Shown: in pieces, positions 29,815 to 54,885 of the stretch
Layout: the number at the start of each line of letters is the position of its first letter
Position numbering within the stretch: the first letter of the stretch is position 1
NCBI RefSeq assembly: GCF_964204645.1
Contig: NC_134025.1
Coordinates: forward strand, 620,001-684,000
DNA from: Tubulanus polymorphus
Taxonomy: Eukaryota > Nemertea > Palaeonemertea > Tubulaniformes > Tubulanidae
DNA: 64,000 bases
Direction of reading: 5' to 3'
Notes under the pieces: generated by a model
What the model saw: only the letters and a program-made list of their open reading frames with translations
The model's database searches: none
Told to the model about the DNA's origin: nothing
Translations under genes and position numbers: made by a program

Positions 29815-32800
29815 ATGGCGCCGTTTGATTGGGACCGGGTGATGGGAATGGACCCGGAAAATCTGGAAGACGAAGCTGAGTCAATATTTGAACTATTAGC
29901 TGAGGTCAGTAACATCACTACAGTCTATAGTTGAATACAAGGGGTTCATGTTTTATTTATTGTATCATGTTTTATCAATGAACAGTTGGATGTCGGAGAT
30001 GAATCTAATTTAGATCGAGTTAAACAAGTTTTCCGTATCACTCAATCAGTGATGTTAGTTAAAGCTGCTGAAGCTGAGGTTGCTATGGAAGAGATGGAGA
30101 AGCAAGCGCAGACAGCTGGACGCTCGGATGCTAAAAAAGGTACTGAAATTAATCTCTAAATGTCGTCATTTGAATAAGTTATTGATCGCATCATTGAAAT
30201 TGTCTCTATTATTTTGAGTCTCAATTCGCGTGTCTTATTCTATTTACTAAGTGGAATAAGACATCAAATGGATAAGTCTTCAACATTATGATCGTCAGAA
30301 ACTATGACAACTTCAACAAGTTTCATTGTATTCAAATTCTGTTTTAAGATGATTCTCTGCGAATTTAATGTTTGAAACGTGTGTTTATTTCAGAACAAGA
30401 ATTGTTGGATCGAATTGCAGAATTAGAATCGGAAAACAAAGATTTACAGGTGAAAAATTCATCCTCTTAAATAAAGATGTATCCACATCAACAGTTTTTA
30501 CTTGAAATTTACTTTAAGATTTTAGATGATTATTTAACCATGAGAACTGTTGAACAGGTCCTGTATCTATTTAAATATATAAAACATTGATTCATTCATA
30601 AGATTGAGTAGAGATGCTGAAAGTTTTATGTTTTGAATATTGACAGAGATTTGGAGGCGGTGCTGAAAGTGGTCGAGATACGAAATTCCTACGCGGAGAA
30701 CTTCAGGATCTTGAAAGACAAAATAAAATTCTTCAGGAAGATCTAGGAAATCTCGAACGGGAGCTGGCTAATGAGAAAAAATCATCGGAACAGGTACAAA
30801 TTATCAATATCATCGGAAATATATCGATTAATATTTAGAATGTCACTTAGAAAATATTTTCAATAATCTTATATTTTAGATGGCAGCAAAAGTACAAGAG
30901 TTGGAAAAAGAAAAAGACAATTTGAGATCAGAGGTAAAAATTCAGTTGTATTCATAAAAACACTAAGGACGCAACAACATTTAACACAACATAGATGAAC
31001 CTATTGATTCGGTAATCTCGATAAAATCTGACATAACAACAGTGAAAATGAACTAGGAGTCTGATTTAATTGACAACTGTGGAACTGTGTCCTGGAATTA
31101 AAAACAGATTTGATTAAATGAATGATGTTTGTTAAAAGGCTGACGGCTACAAACGTGAAATAGATGCTCATGAAAGACAATTAGAATCACAAAGAGAAAG
31201 AATGATGATGAAAAGAGGAGAAGATGCAGAATATAAAGAGAAACTCAGTAAGAATAAACGTGAATTAGTGGAAGCACTTGAGGAAGTCAATGTAAGTGTA
31301 AACAGTGGATACAGTGGAAACTCTGTGTTACTCTAATCTTGTTACTATAGATAATTCACTGAATTGAACAGATACAGAGTTGACCAGAGTCCTTGGAGTT
31401 CATCAAAATAATACAAAAAATGTTGCCTTCATTTAACCAGAAATACATAACAAAATAAAGAAGGAAACTTCATGAATAAAGTTTATTTGAATATGATATA
31501 ATGATGAAAATATTTTGTGTGTGTTTAGAATTTGACTTTCGCGAACAACAAACTTCAAGAACAAGTTGATGATATGAGTAAAAAAATGAAAGACGCCAAA
31601 CAAGAAATGGATCGAATGACAACTGATTATATGAAACTAAAAACTGAATTGAATGAATATGATGGAGTTATGGATGGACTTCGTAAAGATAATGATTTAT
31701 TGAAAGCTCAGGTAATTTCACACTCATTTTGATTATACAGGTTCAGATCGGTCTCTACCGATTCCGTAATTATCTTCTGGCGCGTTCGTTTTGACCAGGA
31801 TATGCTCTATAATGCTCAGCCGGTCGAGAGTTTGTAATCCGGAATCGCTGTTCCTAAACCAGAATACTTTTAATCAAAGCCTCCCTTAATGTTATATGTA
31901 TTCATGAAATGTAGTAGTTTTAATCAATATTTTGTTGATTATTGTTGATATTTAGGTCAGTGATTTGATGGAACAAGTTCATTCTAAAGCAGACGCAGAT
32001 GATGAAATAATGGTTGCTGTTCATAATAAAGTTGAGGAATGGAAGGTAAATACATGAAACTCACTGCACTGTACTTTCAGATGGATTCATAGTTAATCAT
32101 GATTTTTTGTTTGTAGCAAATATTGGCAGAAAAAGACAGCGAAGTTGTTGAGTATCATTTACAAGTTCAGAAACTGAAGGAACAATTGTTAGCAGCGAAT
32201 ATGGACACAGAAAAAGCATCAGTTGCCGTTTTATCAAAGGTACAGCTGCATTATTTAGAATAGCTACGGAGCAGCTACCCGTGCCGAGCAGCTACCCATG
32301 CCGAGCAGCTACCTGTGTAGATACCTATTATTGATTGTAATTTGTTGTATTTTCAGGCTGTTGAGGAAAGAGATCGCCAGGTTGAAATATTAAAAGATAA
32401 ACTAGACCAAGCAACAAGTGAAATTCAAACGAGTACGGCAGTTATTGAAGACCTCAGAGATGAACTTTCTAAAAGTGAGTTTTTAGTTCAACACTTCTTT
32501 AAACTTCATTCAATGTTGTATAATATTGTTTTTGTGTTGTTTTTGTAGCTGGTCGAGGTCCGTCTGATAAAAACGTTCAACGCATTCGTGAATTACAATC
32601 TAAATTACTGCAAAGTGAAGAGAATTTTAAAGATGCAGAATACAGAAGAACTCAGGTTTGTTCCATCAGTAAAATCTGCGGAATTTAGGGATTCAGAGGT
32701 TTAGATATTTAATGGCTGAATCTATTTTTAGGCTGAAGACGATGCAGAAAAGAAAGACAGAGATTTGAGCGAAGCTTTAGAAAGAATGAGACAATATGAA

Positions 32801-35800: not shown

Positions 35801-38800
35801 CCGTCGATAAATGATTGAAGAAAAAGAGATTTAGACTCAGTTCTATTTTCAAAAATGTTTGATTTCATAATTTCGGGTTTATCTTCAAATTACTTATTCT
35901 AATTCAAGATCAAATCGTTTGAAATGTGGAATAATTTTGATATTTCAGGAATGGGAAAACAGAGAGAAAAAACTGAAAGAAGATGCCAATAAAATGGAAG
36001 GAAAAGCTGAGGAAGATAAAGTGAGAATACAAGAGTTTGATCGATTATTGGATACATTAGAACAGGACGAGGTTGAAGTGAGAAGAAGAGTTTCAGAAAT
36101 GACTCGTAAAACGACTGTTTTAAGAGTAAATGAGAAAGCGTTAACTCGAAGATATAACGCTATCATTGAAATGGAAACCGCAATGAGACGGGTGAGTTAA
36201 TCAGACATCAGTTAACATATCACTTTAATTAGGTCATTCATGATTCAGTTCCACATTTCTCAGTTAAGAGAGTGAGATAAATTCATTTCTCACGTTGTAA
36301 GAGTCAAATCTAAACTGCAGACTGTTGAATTAGGTTAAGGAGTTGGAGGTTCTGGAGTTAACTGTTGAGTTAAGAAGATTGCCAGGTAGTTCATTTCCAA
36401 TCTTTTAACTCAGGAGCTAATTTGAAACTGCAAACTTTGGAACCTGAGTGGAATCTGACACACAACACTGAAACTGGATCCAGGAGTCAGTTTTACTAGT
36501 TTTTGATTTATATTATTTTGCTATTTTAGGAAAACAATCGCTTGAAAAATGATATGATTCAAATGGAGAAAGCAGTGACCGAAAGAATTGGTTACCTGAC
36601 AAGATACAAGGTCAGATCATTTATTCATTGAGATAATGTCGCCATTCTTGTAGATTTCATGAAATATACACTTTTTGGTAACGGTAATTTTTCAGGACAT
36701 GGCGACGTTTAAAATCGCGCATTTACAGAAAGCGTTGGACGAATCAGTTCCGTCTGGTGACCTTGACTACGCGAATAAACAATACAACGAACTGACGGAG
36801 AAATACCGAGATTTACTGGAACGCGGAAACAATCTGGTGTTAAAATCAGAGGAATTCGAAGGAATGGAAGTTGAAGTCAAACGATTGAGAGACGATAATG
36901 ACAATCTGAAAAAAATATTAGAAATTGAAAAAGAGAAAGGACATACGTTTGAGGCGGCTCTGGAACATTTGAGAAAACAAGGTATTTATACATAGTTTCA
37001 TCGGACACACCGGTTTAAAGTCGTCTAGTTGAATTTAGTTTACTGATGAATATTTGAGAAAACAAGGTATTAAAACATATTTTTAATGGAAAAACCGGTG
37101 TCAAGTTGACTGTATGATATTTACTGATGAATTATTTTGTGTAGGTGTAAAAGGAGACAGCGCTGTCAGTGATGGAGAAGTGATTTCAATATCTAAGAAA
37201 ATAACGATGTTAGAAATGAAAGAGATCAATGAAAGAGAACGAGCTGAACACGCACAAAGAATGTCGGAAAAATATAAACAAACCGTTCATGAGTTAGAGA
37301 ATCGTAATCTAGAATTGGAACAGAAATTCGCCGAGGTAAAATACAAGTATTCAGTGATAATTAGAGATCCTAGACTCAACAGTTCAACAGTTCATTGGTT
37401 GAGACTTTGAAAATGACCTAAATGATCTCTACATAATTGGTATTTATTGTCTTCTTTGGTGTTTTATAGTTGACACGAATGAATCTAGAAAATCAGAAAG
37501 TTGAAAGAGAACTTCGCGATGAACTATCGAGTAAGTTAGATTACGTTGGAACCCGACGTGCTGAATGTGCGTGTGTTTGAATGTTTAATTGTTGATTATT
37601 GTCTTTAAAATAGATTGCGTCACTAAGAAAGTGAGTGATGCAGATAGAAAGAGAATTACTGAATTGGAGACCATTGAGGCAAATATGAAAGTAGAAATAT
37701 CTAAACTAAAGGTAAAAACACAATTCTTTGATGTCAGAATCTTCATAAAACATGTGTCTTGAATTTTCATTTCATCTCTCAACCCGCTGAGCGCTGTTAT
37801 TAGCAGGGTTTATTCTTATTGATTAAGGGAGAGAGTTATGAGAAAAACCATCAACCGGGTAACTGTGCCTAGTTCAGGGTATTGTGGCTTCTGCTGGAGG
37901 GGAGAGAAGAACTCTGACTCTACGAGAATCCAAACCCATGAACCCTAGATGTTTTTGACGGTAGTTTTTTGATGTAATTATTTCAGGAAGTAGCTGAAGT
38001 TGGTGTAATGCAAGCTAAAGCTTTAGACGCTCAACAAGTTTCACGCGATAAAGAAGTTTTATCATTGAGACAACAATTGTTAGATATACAGGCTCAAAGT
38101 GATGAGAAAACTATCATAGGTTCGTTTTACCGCAGAACTCCCGGTTCCAACATCATTCGTTCAGAATTGACTCGTTTTAGAAACTGAGTCCAGATTCAAA
38201 GTAATTCGAAAAATGTCCAATAATGATTCTGATTTCATGTTTCAGGTAAATTACACAGACAGATCGTATTGTTACAAGTTAGCGAAGGAACCGCCGTCAG
38301 AAAATACGAAGACGCTCAGAAAAAGATCATCAAATTAGAAGCTCAAGTTTTACAAAGAGAACATAAATTAGACGAGAAAGATCAAGCTTTGTTTCACAAT
38401 CAGGTCGAGTCTCGTAGTAAATCGAAACACTTAAAACGTACGATTCATTCTCTGCGACGTCAGTTCAGCGGAGCCGTTCCGCTCGTCAGGCAGGAGAAAT
38501 TCGCTAAATCAATGGTTCAGCTACAAGAGGATAAAAAACTACTGACGCTCGAATTACGACAAGTTCACGAACAACGAACTCAGGTCGAAGATCAACTCGC
38601 CGAGATTCAATTAAAACATCAAGGTTTACAGGATTTGATGGTTACGTTGAAGGACGGACGCGGCGCGCAGAAAGTCGCTGAATGGCACGGCAAAATGGAA
38701 GCGTTACGACTCGAGGATCTTAAACAGAAACGACAGAATACAAACCTCGCTAAACAGGTCCGGTTTAAATCAGTGTTAATTCACCGTTTCATTAATGAAA

Positions 38801-48272: not shown

Positions 48273-48826
48273 GTAAGTTTTCATAAATTCACATTAATCT
48301 TAAAACTTTATTTCAGTCTTCTGTAACTGGCATTCGATTTCACAATTTTTATTTCAATTTGGCCGGGCGCCGCGGGCCTCTTTTTGAGTCTTCAAATTTT
48401 ATTTCCACTTTCACTTTATTCAATGTTTTCACAGTTTCTACCTTTACCTTTTTGTCTCTTGTATAGAGGAAAGAACTTTGTATTTTTGAATTGCCTTTAA
48501 ATCGAATGAAAGGGGAAAATATTTCATAAAAAAGTATCATTATCACTTTAGTTCTATTGTCTGCTTTTGGCTTTGTGGTGCCGGTGGATGCAATGCACAA
48601 AAGGGAATCTAACCCTGCTAAATTAATACCACCACTCAGATTTTGAAGGTAATTCCAAACCCCAACCGCTGGATGGTTTGTGGACAGTACCCACCTTTAA
48701 ATATCAATTGATTTTACTCCTCAGATTTCAAATTGCAATAAGGCCTTATGCGCTAAATTCTTGATAATGACCAAATTAAGTGTGAACATTGTTAACACAT
48801 GATGTTGTAATTTCATTATATTCCAG

Positions 48827-51800
48827 ATGCCAGAACCAACTGTAGAAAACATGGAAGAAACTGAAGTAGAAACCTTTGCGTTTCAAGCTGAGATCGCTCA
48901 ATTAATGAGTTTGATCATCAACACATTTTACTCAAACAAAGAAATTTTCCTGCGAGAATTGATTTCAAATTCTTCCGATGCTTTGGATAAAATCCGCTAC
49001 CAGAGTTTGACCGACCCGGCAGTTCTGGACAGCGGCAAAGATCTGAAGATCGATATCATCCCCGACCCGGCCAACAATGTCCTGACTATCGAGGATTCTG
49101 GTATCGGAATGACGAAGGCTGATTTAGTGAACAATCTCGGAACGATCGCTAAATCTGGAACTAAAGCTTTCATGGAGGCTTTACAGGTAAATAACCCCTA
49201 ATTCATTAGGGGATCACCACATTCCCTGATCTATGAAAGAACAATGAAGTTTGGGTTTATTTCGAGAAAAGATGAAATAATTTGCTATTCTTATTGGCAA
49301 TGCAGTGGCTGCCCGATATCAGAGGCAATTAGTCAATCTCAAAATTATTTAAAATATCCGCTTAGCGTTGGTCTTGGATGTAATAGTCTCATAACTGGAT
49401 TCAATAACTAACTTCTAATTTTCATGATTAATTGAAATGAGAGTTTTCTGTTTTCTCTTCATATCTATTCTAAAATCATGGTTCCTACAGATCAGGGTAA
49501 TTGGGAAAAACTTGGGAATTTGAAAAATCGTCCTCAAATCAGGGAAATACTTGGGAAATTCATTACATTTTACATATATTGCATTTGCCAAGGGCAACTT
49601 TCTTCAGCGATTTTCCCTTGAAAATCACATTCATCGACCAGTCACCACTAAAATAACATGACGATATGTGTTCATTTCCATTTGGGAAAATTGAAAAATC
49701 ACCCATGAAGTACTTGGGAATTTTGAATTCATACAACTGTGGGAACCATGTAAAATGTATATGATGTATAATTTCAGTCTGGAGTTGACATATCTATGAT
49801 TGGTCAATTTGGTGTTGGTTTCTACTCTGCGTATCTCGTCGCTGATCGTGTAACAGTTCACACTAAACACAACGACGACGAACAGTACGTGTGGGAGTCC
49901 TCGGCCGGTGGATCGTTCACAGTCCGTAACGCTAACGCCTCGGACCCCGTCATCAAACGAGGAACGAGGATCATTCTTCACATCAAAGAGGATCAAAACG
50001 AATACATCGAGGAGAAACGCGTTAAGGAAGTCGTGAAGAAACACAGTCAATTCATCGGATACCCGATCACGCTGTTCGTCGAGAAAGAACGAGAAAAAGA
50101 GATCAGCGACGACGAAGAAGAGGAAGAAAAAGAAGAAAAGAAAGAGGGAGAGGAGGAAGAAGAGAAGGTAAAATTGAATCTCGTTTCCGTGGGAAATATT
50201 GAGAAAGTTATTGTCGCAAATGATGTTGAATTCTTTTCCCAGCTTATCCATATATGCTGATACAGCGCTAACTAAAGCCAATCATCTGATGCGACCAAAC
50301 TATAAACTTTCTGAATCCTGGCAGCTCTACAGTTCACAGTCAACTTCTGACTTCACAATTTGGAAGTGAAATGTCTCAGAATTGTTAAACTCTGTCCCAG
50401 ATTCAATGAGTGTGTAGTGTGTGTAAGTAATGCTTGGATGTATTTTAAGGCTGATGAAGACAAACCAAAGATAGAAGATCTGGATGAAGATGAGGACGCC
50501 GATAAGAAAACTGATAAGAAAAAGAAGAAGATTAAGGAGAAGTACATCGACTCTGAAGAGCTGAATAAAACTAAACCTCTGTGGACACGTAATCCTGACG
50601 ATATCACACAGGAAGAATACGGAGAGTTCTATAAATCATTGACCAACGATTGGGAAGAACATTTAGCTGTCAAGGTAGATATTTACGTTCTGGAAATAGG
50701 AACCAGTCCAACCTAGTTTAATCCTAATGATTACTTATTCTTAGCTAATTCCAATAAGGAATACAAATTAGGGGTCAGAAATTGAGATGACTTGAGTTGG
50801 CCGATTAATTGGCCACTTAACTGAATCAAACTGTATTTGATTCTTTTATAAGTTGCAAATGATGTTGAATTCTTTTCCCAGCTTATCCATAGATGCTGAT
50901 ACCGTGCTAACTAAGCCAATCATCTGATGCAACTTGAACATGATTATTTGGTGGTTCATCTATTTGAAATTGATGAAGTAAAATGATTTGAAATGTTTTT
51001 TTTTGCAGCATTTCTCAGTTGAAGGTCAACTGGAATTCCGTGCTCTGTTATTCATCCCAAAACGAGCTCCGTTCGATTTGTTTGAAAGCAAAAAGAAACG
51101 AAACAACATCAAACTGTACGTGAGACGTGTATTTATCATGGATAACTGTGAAGATCTTATTCCTGAATATCTCAGTAAGTTCTAACTATCCAACAAACTA
51201 CTGGACCCAGTTCCACAGTTCTGGGTTAAAGTGAGTTCATTTTCAGTGAGTTAAATCTTAACTCACAACTGTGGAACTGGACCCCGTCTTTTATGATTCC
51301 TAATTCACTATTAATCAATGTTTGAATATCATTTTTCTACTGAGGTTCATGTGACCTTTAAAGTTACTTGTCATAAATATAAATGAAGAGTCTCTTGATC
51401 GCAAATGATGTTGAATTCTTTTCCCAGCTTATCCATATATGCTGATACAGCGCTAACTAAAGCCAATTATCTGATGCAGTAATTCATTAGACTCTTACAA
51501 TTCAATTAAAAACTGATGTTCATTTCACCTCGTCAGGTGTCTGATTAGTGCCTGATTTTACAGATAGATGTCGCTAGTTGTACGCTCTAAATGATAAGTC
51601 TATTTTGCGTTACAGATTTCATCAAGGGTGTAGTTGACTCCGAAGATTTACCGTTAAACATTTCTCGTGAAATGTTGCAACAAAGCAAAATCCTGAAAGT
51701 CATCCGTAAAAATCTCGTGAAGAAGTGCATGGAATTGATCGAAAGCATCGCCGAAGATAAAGACAACTTTGCCAAGTTCTACGAGCATTTCGCCAAGAAC

Positions 51801-53375
51801 ATGAAACTCGGAATTCACGAGGATACGACCAACAGGAAGAAACTCGCTGATTTCCTCAGATATTATTCCTCTCAATCCGGAGACGAAATGACTTCATTGA
51901 AGGATTACGTGTCGAGAATGAAGGAGAACCAGAAATCCATCTATTTCATCACCGGTAAATATCTCATAAATTTATCTCTAGTTTCACTGATACAGGTATC
52001 AATCTGCTGCCTCGAATCGGGACCTCTGTCAAAGTCTTCTGTTGTTGATTTACAATTAAAAATTTCTCGGATGAAGTTCTGAACATATGTAATGCGTGAA
52101 TTCTTAAAAGTTGATCTAATATTGAATATTTGACGTGTAAGCAGATTGATACTTGAATTTGTAGATTTCTAGAGTCAAAATAATTCATTCTTTTCGCAAA
52201 TGATGTTGAATTCTTTTCCCAGCTTATCCATATATGCTGATACAGCGCTAACTAAAGCCAATCATCTGATGCAATGATCTGCGGTATAAATGACTGTATA
52301 AACTGAGTGTAGATTTGATCTGAATGCAGTGTTATTTAATTTCCGACAGGTGAAAGCCGTGAACACGTACAGAATTCAGCGTTTGTTGAAGGAGTAAAGA
52401 AGAGAGGATTTGAAGTGTTGTACATGATCGATCCTATCGACGAATACGCTACTCAACAATTGAAAGAATACGACGGTAAAACGCTCGTTTCCGTGACGAA
52501 AGAAGGATTAGAATTACCCGAGGACGAGGAAGAGAAGAAGAAGTTCGAAGAACAGAAAGCTCATTACGAGGGTCTGTGCAAAGTGATGAAGGAGATTCTC
52601 GATAAGAAAGTCGAAAAGGTAAGAAATCATCCCTTCATTACTTCACTTTAGGTCATTTAATTATCATTAATATGAAACTTAGGGTTTGAAAGAGTTACCT
52701 ATTAGAACTAATCAGTCTTGAGTCGCAAATGATGTTGAATTCTTTTCCCAGCTTATCCATATATGCTGATACAGCGCTAACTAAAGCCAATCATCTGATG
52801 CAGTAATTAAGACTGTTAGTTCTGAATATTGTCTTCAGTTAAATTAATCAAACATTCACTCTATCATTAAGGTGGGGTCTGTTATGTCATTGTAGTTAGT
52901 TTGAACTGTAATTAATTTTGTGTCTAATTTCTAGGTTGTTGTATCAAACCGTTTGATCACGTCGCCGTGTTGTATTGTCACAAGTCAATACGGTTGGTCC
53001 GCGAACATGGAACGCATCATGAAAGCACAAGCTCTCCGCGATACGTCCACGATGGGTTACATGGCCGCCAAGAAACACCTCGAAGTCAACCCCGATCATT
53101 CCATCGTGAAAACGCTTCGCGAGAAAGCCGAAACCGATAAAAACGATAAATCAGTTAAAGACTTAGTAATGTTATTATTCGAAACATCTCTTCTGTCGTC
53201 GGGATTTACTCTCGAGGAACCGCAGATTCACGCCGATAGAATTCATCGCATGATTAAACTAGGTTTAGGAGTCGAAGAGGACGAGATCGAAACCACGGAG
53301 ACGGCCGATGAATCGATGCCACCCCTGGAAGGTGAGGACGGAGACGATAGCACGCGTATGGAGGAAATCGATTAA
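48827..53375 (+). CDS. HSP90: cytosolic HSP90 chaperone, 7 coding exons
   Basis: ATP-dependent dimeric chaperone of the cytosol. Exons: 48827-49186, 49778-50167, 50450-50674, 51009-51174, 51616-51954, 52350-52618, 52935-53375, joining to 729 aa (human HSP90AB1 724). The N-domain GHKL ATPase shows [19 protein letters not shown] (catalytic Glu44, Asn48), EDSGIGMT (Asp90) and [14 protein letters not shown] near 129. The charged linker is [19 protein letters not shown] plus a Lys-rich second part. The middle domain has [13 protein letters not shown] and [21 protein letters not shown]; the dimerisation domain has [13 protein letters not shown]. It ends [14 protein letters not shown]. The absence of a signal peptide and of a KDEL end makes it the cytosolic form. 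The terminal pentapeptide is MEEID instead of the usual TPR-binding MEEVD. Introns 3 to 7 each carry a snoRNA-like element. It is tail-to-tail with WDR20 across about 4 kb. Confidence 0.97.
49477..49750. mobile_element. MITE in HSP90 intron 2
   Basis: Left end CATGGTTCCTACAG, right end CTGTGGGAACCATG, with TAAAAT repeated on both sides (49471-49476, 49751-49756) as a candidate target duplication. The interior has several copies of a 'ttgggaaaa..cttgggaattt' motif. No coding capacity. This is the only large intron of the gene without the snoRNA-like element, apart from the 5' UTR intron. Confidence 0.7.
50203..50311 (+). ncRNA. box C/D snoRNA copy 1, HSP90 intron 3
   Basis: Core 50213-50295. 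C-like box ATGATGT (50220-50226), D' CTGA (50257-50260), D CTGA (50286-50289). The ends GTCGCA and TGCGAC form a perfect 6-bp terminal stem. An outer stem GAAAGTTAT / ATAAACTTTC (50203-50211 with 50302-50311, one bulge) encloses it. The core ends 154 nt before the next exon. RNA target not assigned. Confidence 0.82.
50850..50935 (+). ncRNA. box C/D snoRNA copy 2, HSP90 intron 4
   Basis: The most diverged copy, with ATAGATG, ACCGTGC and one A lost in the ACTAAGCC segment. C-like box, D' CTGA and D CTGA are all kept. The terminal stem is AAGTTGCA / TGCAACTT, a perfect 8 bp. Compared with copy 1, the C-G pair has become T-A on both strands of the stem. The core ends about 75 nt before exon 5. 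Confidence 0.82.
51201..51284. repeat. palindromic MITE, family A, in HSP90 intron 5
   Basis: CTGGACCCAGTTCCACAGTT on the left and AACTGTGGAACTGGACCCC on the right. It lies upstream of snoRNA copy 3 in the same intron. Confidence 0.75.
51386..51496 (+). ncRNA. box C/D snoRNA copy 3, HSP90 intron 5
   Basis: Core 51401-51477, identical to copy 1 in the body apart from AATTAT for AATCAT before the D box. The inner stem is only GCA/TGC, but an outer perfect 8-bp stem AAGAGTCT / AGACTCTT (51386-51393 with 51489-51496) closes the element. The core ends 138 nt before the next exon. Confidence 0.8.
52185..52277 (+). ncRNA. box C/D snoRNA copy 4, HSP90 intron 6
   Basis: Core 52196-52272, body identical to copy 1, inner stem GCA/TGC. 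A weak outer pairing TCATT / AATGA with a 6-nt bulge is possible. The core ends 77 nt before exon 7. Confidence 0.8.
52704..52823 (+). ncRNA. box C/D snoRNA copy 5, HSP90 intron 7
   Basis: Core 52725-52801, body identical to copy 1. A long outer stem encloses it: AGAACTAATCAGTCTT (52704-52719) pairs with AAGACTGTTAGTTCT (52809-52823), 15 bp with one bulged T. The core ends 133 nt before the last exon. Confidence 0.82.
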
Positions 53376-53893: not shown

Positions 53894-54074
53894 GTGGCAG
53901 CACTGTACGGTCCCCTATAGGAATTTCTGTGAACTAATTAACGAGGACGGTTAGTGTATAGACTGGTTACCGGTCTCTAAGATATTGAATGGGACAGGCA
54001 ACCAGTCTAGGTTAGAGTACGGAAATAAAATTAGTTCACAGAAATTCCGCTTGGGGACCGTACAGTGCTGCCAC
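53894..54074. mobile_element. MITE with ~45-bp terminal inverted repeats
   Basis: Left arm GTGGCAGCACTGTACGGTCC then CC, TATAGGAATTTCTGTGAACT and AATT; right arm AATTAGTTCACAGAAATTCC, then GGGGACCGTACAGTGCTGCC and AC. The centre contains a smaller inverted repeat AGACTGGTT (53960-53968) / AACCAGTCT (54000-54008), also seen at 8026-8077. Confidence 0.8.
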
Positions 54075-54139: not shown

Positions 54140-54885
54140 CTGTTCTCTCGGTGAATGCTGTAACCTAGGCATCACGAGATTACTATCTGTGGATGCTGTA
54201 ACCTAGGCATCACGAGATTACTATCTGTGGATGCTGTAACCTAGGCATCACGAGATTACTATCTGTGTGATGCTGTAACCTAGGCATCACGAGATTACTA
54301 CTATCGGTGGATGCTGTAACCTAGGCATCACGAGATTACTATCGGTGGATGCTGTAACCTAGGCATCACGAGATTACTATCTGTGGATGCTGTTACCTAG
54401 AGGCATCACGAGATTACTATCTGTGGATGCTGTTACCTAGAGGCATCACGAGATTACTATCTGTGGATGCTGTAACCTAGGCATCACGAGATTACTATCT
54501 GTGGATGCTGTAACCTAGGCATCACAAGATTACTATCGGTGGATGCTGTAACCTAGGCATCACGAGATTACTACTATCGGTGGATGCTGTAACCTAGGCA
54601 TCACGAGATTACTATCGGTGGATGCTGTAACCTAGGCATCACGAGATTACTATCTGTGGATGCTGTAACCTAGGCATCACGAGATTACTATCAGTGGATG
54701 CTGTAACCTAGGCATCGCGAGATTACTATCTGTGGATGCTGTAACCTAGGAATCGCGAGATTACTATCTGTGGATGCTGTAACCTAGGCATCACGAGATT
54801 ACTATCTGTGGATGCTGTAACCTAGGCATCACGAGATTACTATCGGTGGATGCTGTAACCTAGGCATCACGAGACTACCTACTAT
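54140..54885. repeat. 38-bp minisatellite, ~19 copies
   Basis: Unit GTGGATGCTGTAACCTAGGC followed by ATCACGAGATTACTATCT. Variants are CTATCGGTGG, an ACTACTATC insertion and GTTACCTAGAGGC. The units are directly adjacent with no spacers. Confidence 0.95.

Follow-up and report, generated by a model that had tools for sequence, protein, structure and literature searches.

The vertebrate HSC70 gene carries three copies of U14, a box C/D small nucleolar RNA (snoRNA); yeast snR190 is a ribosome-assembly chaperone, and human SNORD12 has been linked, via ZFAS1, to colorectal cancer. Multi-copy box C/D snoRNAs in consecutive introns have been described for U14 in HSC70 (PMC7277114) and for SNORD12/B/C in ZFAS1 (PMC11971394). 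SNORD12, S. cerevisiae snR190 and S. pombe snR107 are orthologues: in each, the first guide precedes a degenerate box D' and is complementary to helix 73 (H73) of the large-subunit (LSU) ribosomal RNA (rRNA), where the target G is G2395 in S. cerevisiae, G2483 in S. pombe and G3878 in human (PMC11971394, PMC8536666, PMC7243338). S. cerevisiae leaves G2395 unmethylated and uses snR190 as a placeholder (PMC8536666); in S. pombe the target is methylated by snR107 (PMC11971394). Here we describe five near-identical elements of 76-77 nucleotides (nt) in the HSP90 gene of the nemertean Tubulanus polymorphus, found in a 64,000-nt stretch of its genome (the window; NC_134025.1, positions 620,001 to 684,000). 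Sequence evidence marks it as a box C/D snoRNA, most likely a divergent orthologue of SNORD12/snR190/snR107.

Five box C/D elements in consecutive HSP90 introns

The HSP90 gene is intact, its seven exons from position 48827 onward splicing to one open protein. As an earlier note on this DNA had claimed, introns 3-7 each hold a single copy of the element, always on the HSP90 strand. In window coordinates, the gene and the copies, with their boxes and first guide (antisense element 1, ASE1), are:

48827-53374, + strand: coding part of the HSP90 host gene, unbroken translation with the C-terminal end MEEID
48827-49186, 49778-50167, 50450-50674, 51009-51174, 51616-51954, 52350-52618 and 52935-53374, + strand: the seven HSP90 coding exons
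48273-48826, + strand: HSP90 intron 1
50216-50292, + strand: copy 1, in intron 3 (50168-50449), sub-threshold Rfam SNORD12 match of 27.1 bits; box C 50220-50226, ASE1 50231-50242, D' CUUA 50243-50246, C' 50254-50260, D 50286-50289
50855-50930, + strand: copy 2, in intron 4 (50675-51008); C 50859-50865, ASE1 50870-50881, D' 50882-50885, C' 50893-50899, D 50924-50927
51401-51477, + strand: copy 3, in intron 5 (51175-51615); C 51405-51411, ASE1 51416-51427, D' 51428-51431, C' 51439-51445, D 51471-51474
52196-52272, + strand: copy 4, in intron 6 (51955-52349); C 52200-52206, ASE1 52211-52222, D' 52223-52226, C' 52234-52240, D 52266-52269
52725-52801, + strand: copy 5, in intron 7 (52619-52934); C 52729-52735, ASE1 52740-52751, D' 52752-52755, C' 52763-52769, D 52795-52798

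Copies 1, 4 and 5 share one sequence, from which copy 3 departs by a single base and copy 2 by three substitutions and one deletion. The block from box C through ASE1 to D' is the same in all five, and all the variation between copies falls 3' of D'. Neither HSP90 introns 1 and 2 nor the rest of the window holds a further copy, and a search of the whole genome (268 Mb) returned the five HSP90 copies and no other match; the dispersed, transposon-like copies that the earlier note had named as evidence against a snoRNA were not found.

Each copy reads, from 5' to 3', as box C AUGAUGU (6/7 against RUGAUGA), ASE1 UUCUUUUCCCAG, box D' CUUA (3/4), a 7-nt spacer, box C' AUGCUGA (6/7), a second arm bearing GCCAAU, and box D CUGA. 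The D' and C' boxes of C/D snoRNAs are usually degenerate. The C-like box AATGATGT, the internal and terminal CTGA, and the GCA/TGC pairing described before are all present. The internal CTGA, by contrast, had been taken as box D', probably wrongly: it fits better as the end of C', with CUUA as D'.

To gauge chance, we scanned the window and shuffled versions of it for a minimal C/D layout (RTGATGN, CTGA 50-85 nt downstream, and a 3-bp stem). The + strand holds seven such layouts, five of them the HSP90 copies, which are related and hence do not count as five independent events; because shuffled windows average 0.25, the finding of five is not due to chance. The layout, together with the flanking stems and spacing described below, supports the earlier proposal of an intron-encoded box C/D snoRNA with several copies in a single HSP90 host, and we regard the assignment of the elements to this class as well supported on sequence grounds. 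The other two layouts, at 29839-29903 and 37169-37247, may be chance.

Flanking stems and distance to the 3' splice site

The sequences on either side of the element show no relationship between copies (local scores of 5-13 across 60 nt), but each 5' flank tends to pair with its own 3' flank. Summed over the copies, the pairing energy is -64 kcal/mol against -37.5 +/- 5.7 kcal/mol in dinucleotide shuffles (0/300 shuffles), and the matched flanks rank second among the 120 possible flank pairings. Taken singly, copies 1, 2, 3 and 5 have significant stems (p 0.000-0.027) and copy 4 does not (p 0.23). Copy 1 has a 6-bp terminal stem, GUCGCA/UGCGAC, besides its external stem, and copy 2 an 8-bp terminal stem, AAGUUGCA/UGCAACUU; the terminal stem is only 3 bp in copies 3 and 4, and that of copy 4 is weak overall. 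The external stems extend the elements as follows:

50200-50315, + strand: copy 1 with external stem, GAAAGTT in the 5' flank pairing with AACTTTC in the 3' flank
51385-51498, + strand: copy 3 with external stem, AAGAGTCT / AGACTCTT, 8 bp
52704-52824, + strand: copy 5 with long external stem, AGAACTAA-t-CAGTCTT / AAGACTGTTAGTTCT, 15 bp with one bulge, fold z = -4.4

U14 offered a control within the same genome. A search for it (SNORD14) returned four copies at genome C6:6097066-6099693 (E 1.9e-9 to 1.9e-7; 49.6-56.9 bits, slightly below the Rfam cut-off), one per intron of the HSC70 gene (translation MSKNAVGIDLGTTYSCVG...GGPTIEEVD). The parallel with U14 in HSC70 that the earlier note drew is thus literal in this species. 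From the end of box D to the 3' splice site we measured 81 nt in HSP90 copy 2 and 80 nt in copy 4, a spacing shared by U14 copies 2, 3 and 4 (82, 81 and 86 nt). HSP90 copies 1, 3 and 5 lie at 160, 141 and 136 nt, all three with flank stems, and U14 copy 1 at 178 nt. Far copies (136-178 nt) have stronger stems than near ones (Mann-Whitney p = 0.016, n = 9), in a test that pools HSP90 and U14 copies and whose near/far grouping was picked after the distances were seen. Published work puts the best position for a C/D snoRNA some 50 nt before the branch point (PMC8162545, citing Hirose et al. 2003) and finds terminal stems to be more stable in those that are expressed (PMC10234308); the pattern of spacing and stems in HSP90 is broadly compatible with these rules.

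These observations bear on whether the elements could be a short repeat without a product, that is, snoRNA-derived pseudogenes or a small mobile element settled in the HSP90 introns. The short terminal stems of copies 3 and 4, and the lack of a significant flank stem in copy 4, are what such a repeat might show. It would leave unexplained the absence of any copy elsewhere in the genome, the single copy per intron on the transcribed strand, the near-perfect conservation next to unalignable flanks, the stems that these unrelated flanks still form, and the match in spacing to the U14 copies; we consider it very unlikely.

Rather, we favor a box C/D snoRNA released from its host introns. The HSP90 pre-mRNA, once transcribed and spliced, would give up to five snoRNA molecules, with the core proteins of the small nucleolar ribonucleoprotein (snoRNP) predicted to shield the element within each intron while exonucleases trim the remainder. 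Copies 2 and 4 are placed where splicing-coupled assembly would be expected, and in copies 1, 3 and 5, farther from the 3' splice site, the flank stems could hold the ends together instead. With five differently flanked copies in one transcript, the gene offers a natural comparison between splicing-coupled and stem-dependent processing of snoRNAs.

Other repeats lie in and near the gene. Intron 5 contains an inverted repeat with 35-nt arms at 51195-51292 (GGACCCAGTTCCACAGTT...); a similar motif, AGAACTGGGTCC, occurs in contig L006 (genome C8), so that this may be a dispersed hairpin element. A short way downstream of HSP90, about 19 copies of 38-40-bp units (GATGCTGTAACCTAGGCATCACGAGATTACTATCTGTG) form a minisatellite at 54145-54880, directly preceded at 53894-54074 by an inverted repeat (46-nt arms, 93% complementary, 89 nt apart) that is possibly a small transposable element.

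A candidate target in helix 73 of the 28S rRNA

Of the 4227 Rfam families, SNORD12 matches the element best, at 27.1 bits (E 0.014), followed by plant Z103 at 25.4 bits (E 0.069); both scores are sub-threshold. The SNORD12 family (RF00581) has a gathering score of 43 bits. This cut-off is a curator's threshold and no biological definition, and we file the element as a probable divergent member. Elsewhere in the genome no better SNORD12 match was returned, the best reaching 23.7 bits.

The predicted pairing points to the same family. Positions -3 to -12 of ASE1, counted back from CUUA, pair with GGGGAAAGAA in H73 of yeast 25S rRNA over 10 bp with one G-U, and position -5 (D+5) stands opposite G2395, the equivalent of human G3878. 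Under the D+5 rule, with any D'-like box allowed, G2395 is the top 25S site for the element, and 3/20,000 shuffles reach it there. The consensus sequences of SNORD12 and Z103 also pair with this G, and in an identical register; two positions of the helix, -6 and -10, set the element apart from SNORD12, and pairing is kept at both. ASE1 would accordingly be expected to direct 2'-O-methylation by fibrillarin of the G that corresponds to G3878, and/or the RNP may shield the H73 site, at the base of the peptidyl-transferase domain, while the 60S subunit assembles, like yeast snR190. Box layout, uniqueness, flank stems, spacing and complementarity are read from the sequence itself; methylation, core-protein binding and expression are what we would predict from them.

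The earlier note had suspected an orphan or lineage-specific guide, having found no rRNA or small nuclear RNA (snRNA) partner for the stretches before the internal CTGA and before D. Against 18S, 5.8S and 25S and the genome's own U1 and U2, these stretches indeed have no match above chance (best 8-8.5 points, p 0.19-0.69); U4, U5, U6 and U12 were compared with them only in provisional sequences. The two guides are probably unmatched because box C' was taken as box D', and re-reading the internal boxes removes the apparent orphan: with CUUA as D', the upstream arm fits the conserved SNORD12/snR190 site, and the orphan label is probably wrong. A covariance search of the kind that the note proposed gave SNORD12 as best family, with no Rfam gathering score reached, and this lead guided the rRNA test that gave the H73 site.

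Several points weigh against the SNORD12 assignment. No Rfam family matches at its gathering score, and Rfam similarity and rRNA complementarity both rest partly on the UUUUCCC stretch and are not independent lines. In a blind search the H73 helix, at 9.5 points, is ordinary (p = 0.98). The imperfect D' CUUA was picked after the SNORD12 lead, though the shuffles had equal freedom. The second arm pairs over 6 bp only (GCCAAU/AUUGGC, 25S 327-332), close to the reported ASE2 region; the ASE2 of human SNORD12 is also described as small (PMC11971394). Finally, the rRNA used was yeast 25S, mostly entered by hand and checked only in parts, in place of the species' own 28S. Its first 400 nt agree with a contaminant yeast-like ribosomal DNA (rDNA) at 400/400 positions, a comparison with earthworm 28S gave 112/115 nt, and the published identities of C2392 and G2395 land on the correct letters. 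The sequence GGGGAAAGAAGACC, whose third G is the predicted target, has been published as an LSU primer for a microsporidium (PMC8303212) and also lies within a primer for a wheat repeat (PMC4938433).

Some of these points would suit a genuine box C/D snoRNA that is not SNORD12 but a lineage-specific or orphan guide, with the same biogenesis and a different target RNA. Besides the sub-threshold score and the non-significant 10-bp helix, its D arm has no match above chance, although the same guide test recovered the D arms of this genome's own U14 on 18S and SNORD24 on 25S (15 bp each, p < 0.005). That the best D+5 site coincides exactly with the target of the top-scoring Rfam family, and that C-ASE1-D' is invariant across all copies, argue the other way, and we hold this alternative to be unlikely, if credible.

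The element might also be an intronic regulatory signal for HSP90 itself, pairing, for example, with HSP90 RNA to control splicing. Its D arm does pair with the HSP90 exon sequence AUGAUUGGU at 49796, 9 nt from -1 (p = 0.02, uncorrected); by a canonical-helix score, however, this match is at chance level (p = 0.11 for mRNA, 0.30 for pre-mRNA), which makes such a signal extremely improbable.

Other candidate targets were rejected. A sense similarity to human U1 (UUUUCCCAG, GCUUAUCCAU) was dropped, as the genome's own U1 genes are without it. For 28S H63, GGAUAAG-GAUUGGCU, a sequence that occurs in earthworm 28S (PMC5327576), two arms of 7 + 8 bp were seen, but the D arm scored 21 where shuffles averaged 22.5. 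Pairing with the 28S 5' end, GGAAAAGAA, lay within chance.

An rDNA repeat was not found in the assembly, and a viral contig matched the 28S pattern by chance. An isolated 5.8S-like sequence at genome C8:6271837 (L006 1501-1639; 91.5 bits) has no adjacent 28S and is probably a pseudogene. The yeast-like 18S and 28S 5' end trace to contaminant contig L016, one of the eukaryotic rDNA contigs L013-L016 that lie inside bacterial records (a Chlamydiae metagenome-assembled genome (MAG), a cyanobacterium, a Phycisphaerales MAG and Planomonospora) and are evidently contaminants; two group I introns lie in L014. About 20 U2 snRNA genes form a tandem array at genome C7:13975223-14013011, with a period near 1804 bp.

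Chaperone hosts and known relatives

HSP90 with R2TP assembles C/D snoRNPs (PMC8162545, PMC7277114), and in this genome both chaperone genes, HSP90 and HSC70, act as snoRNA hosts. We found no earlier report of HSP90 as host gene in the open-access literature, which leaves most subscription papers outside. In yeasts snR190 and U14 adjoin (PMC11971394); here the snR190-type and U14 snoRNAs lie apart. This suggests that SNORD12/snR190 uses very different hosts across lineages, in this case the gene of a C/D snoRNP-assembly chaperone. Speculatively, snR190 and U14 may have moved separately into the two main cytosolic chaperone genes, and the HSP90 transcript might give both chaperone and RNA cargo, tying the supply of the SNORD12-type snoRNA (and of HSC70 U14) to chaperone demand, for instance in heat stress; we think such regulatory coupling unlikely.

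Among described systems, SNORD86 in NOP56 (PMC7277114) resembles the HSP90 case in that the host product is needed for C/D snoRNP formation; unlike SNORD86, which regulates NOP56 splicing, the HSP90 copies show no sign of a host-gene feedback element. U14 in HSC70 is likewise a set of near-identical C/D copies, one per intron of a cytosolic chaperone gene, and differs in its guide and target (18S), its longer RNA and its host. The closest systems are SNORD12/12B/12C in the human ZFAS1 introns, S. cerevisiae snR190, S. pombe snR107 and probably plant Z103. With this group the element shares the box order, a degenerate D' followed by C', a U-run-CCC guide in the same -3 register, the predicted H73 target G2395/G3878 and GCCA in the second arm; with human SNORD12 it also shares the presence of several copies in consecutive introns of a single gene. 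Unlike SNORD12, it carries two guide substitutions, with pairing kept, and a second arm that pairs over 6 bp only; unlike SNORD12 and snR190, it scores below the Rfam threshold, is present in five copies, and has a protein-coding host, HSP90, where theirs is a long non-coding RNA or a snoRNA transcript.

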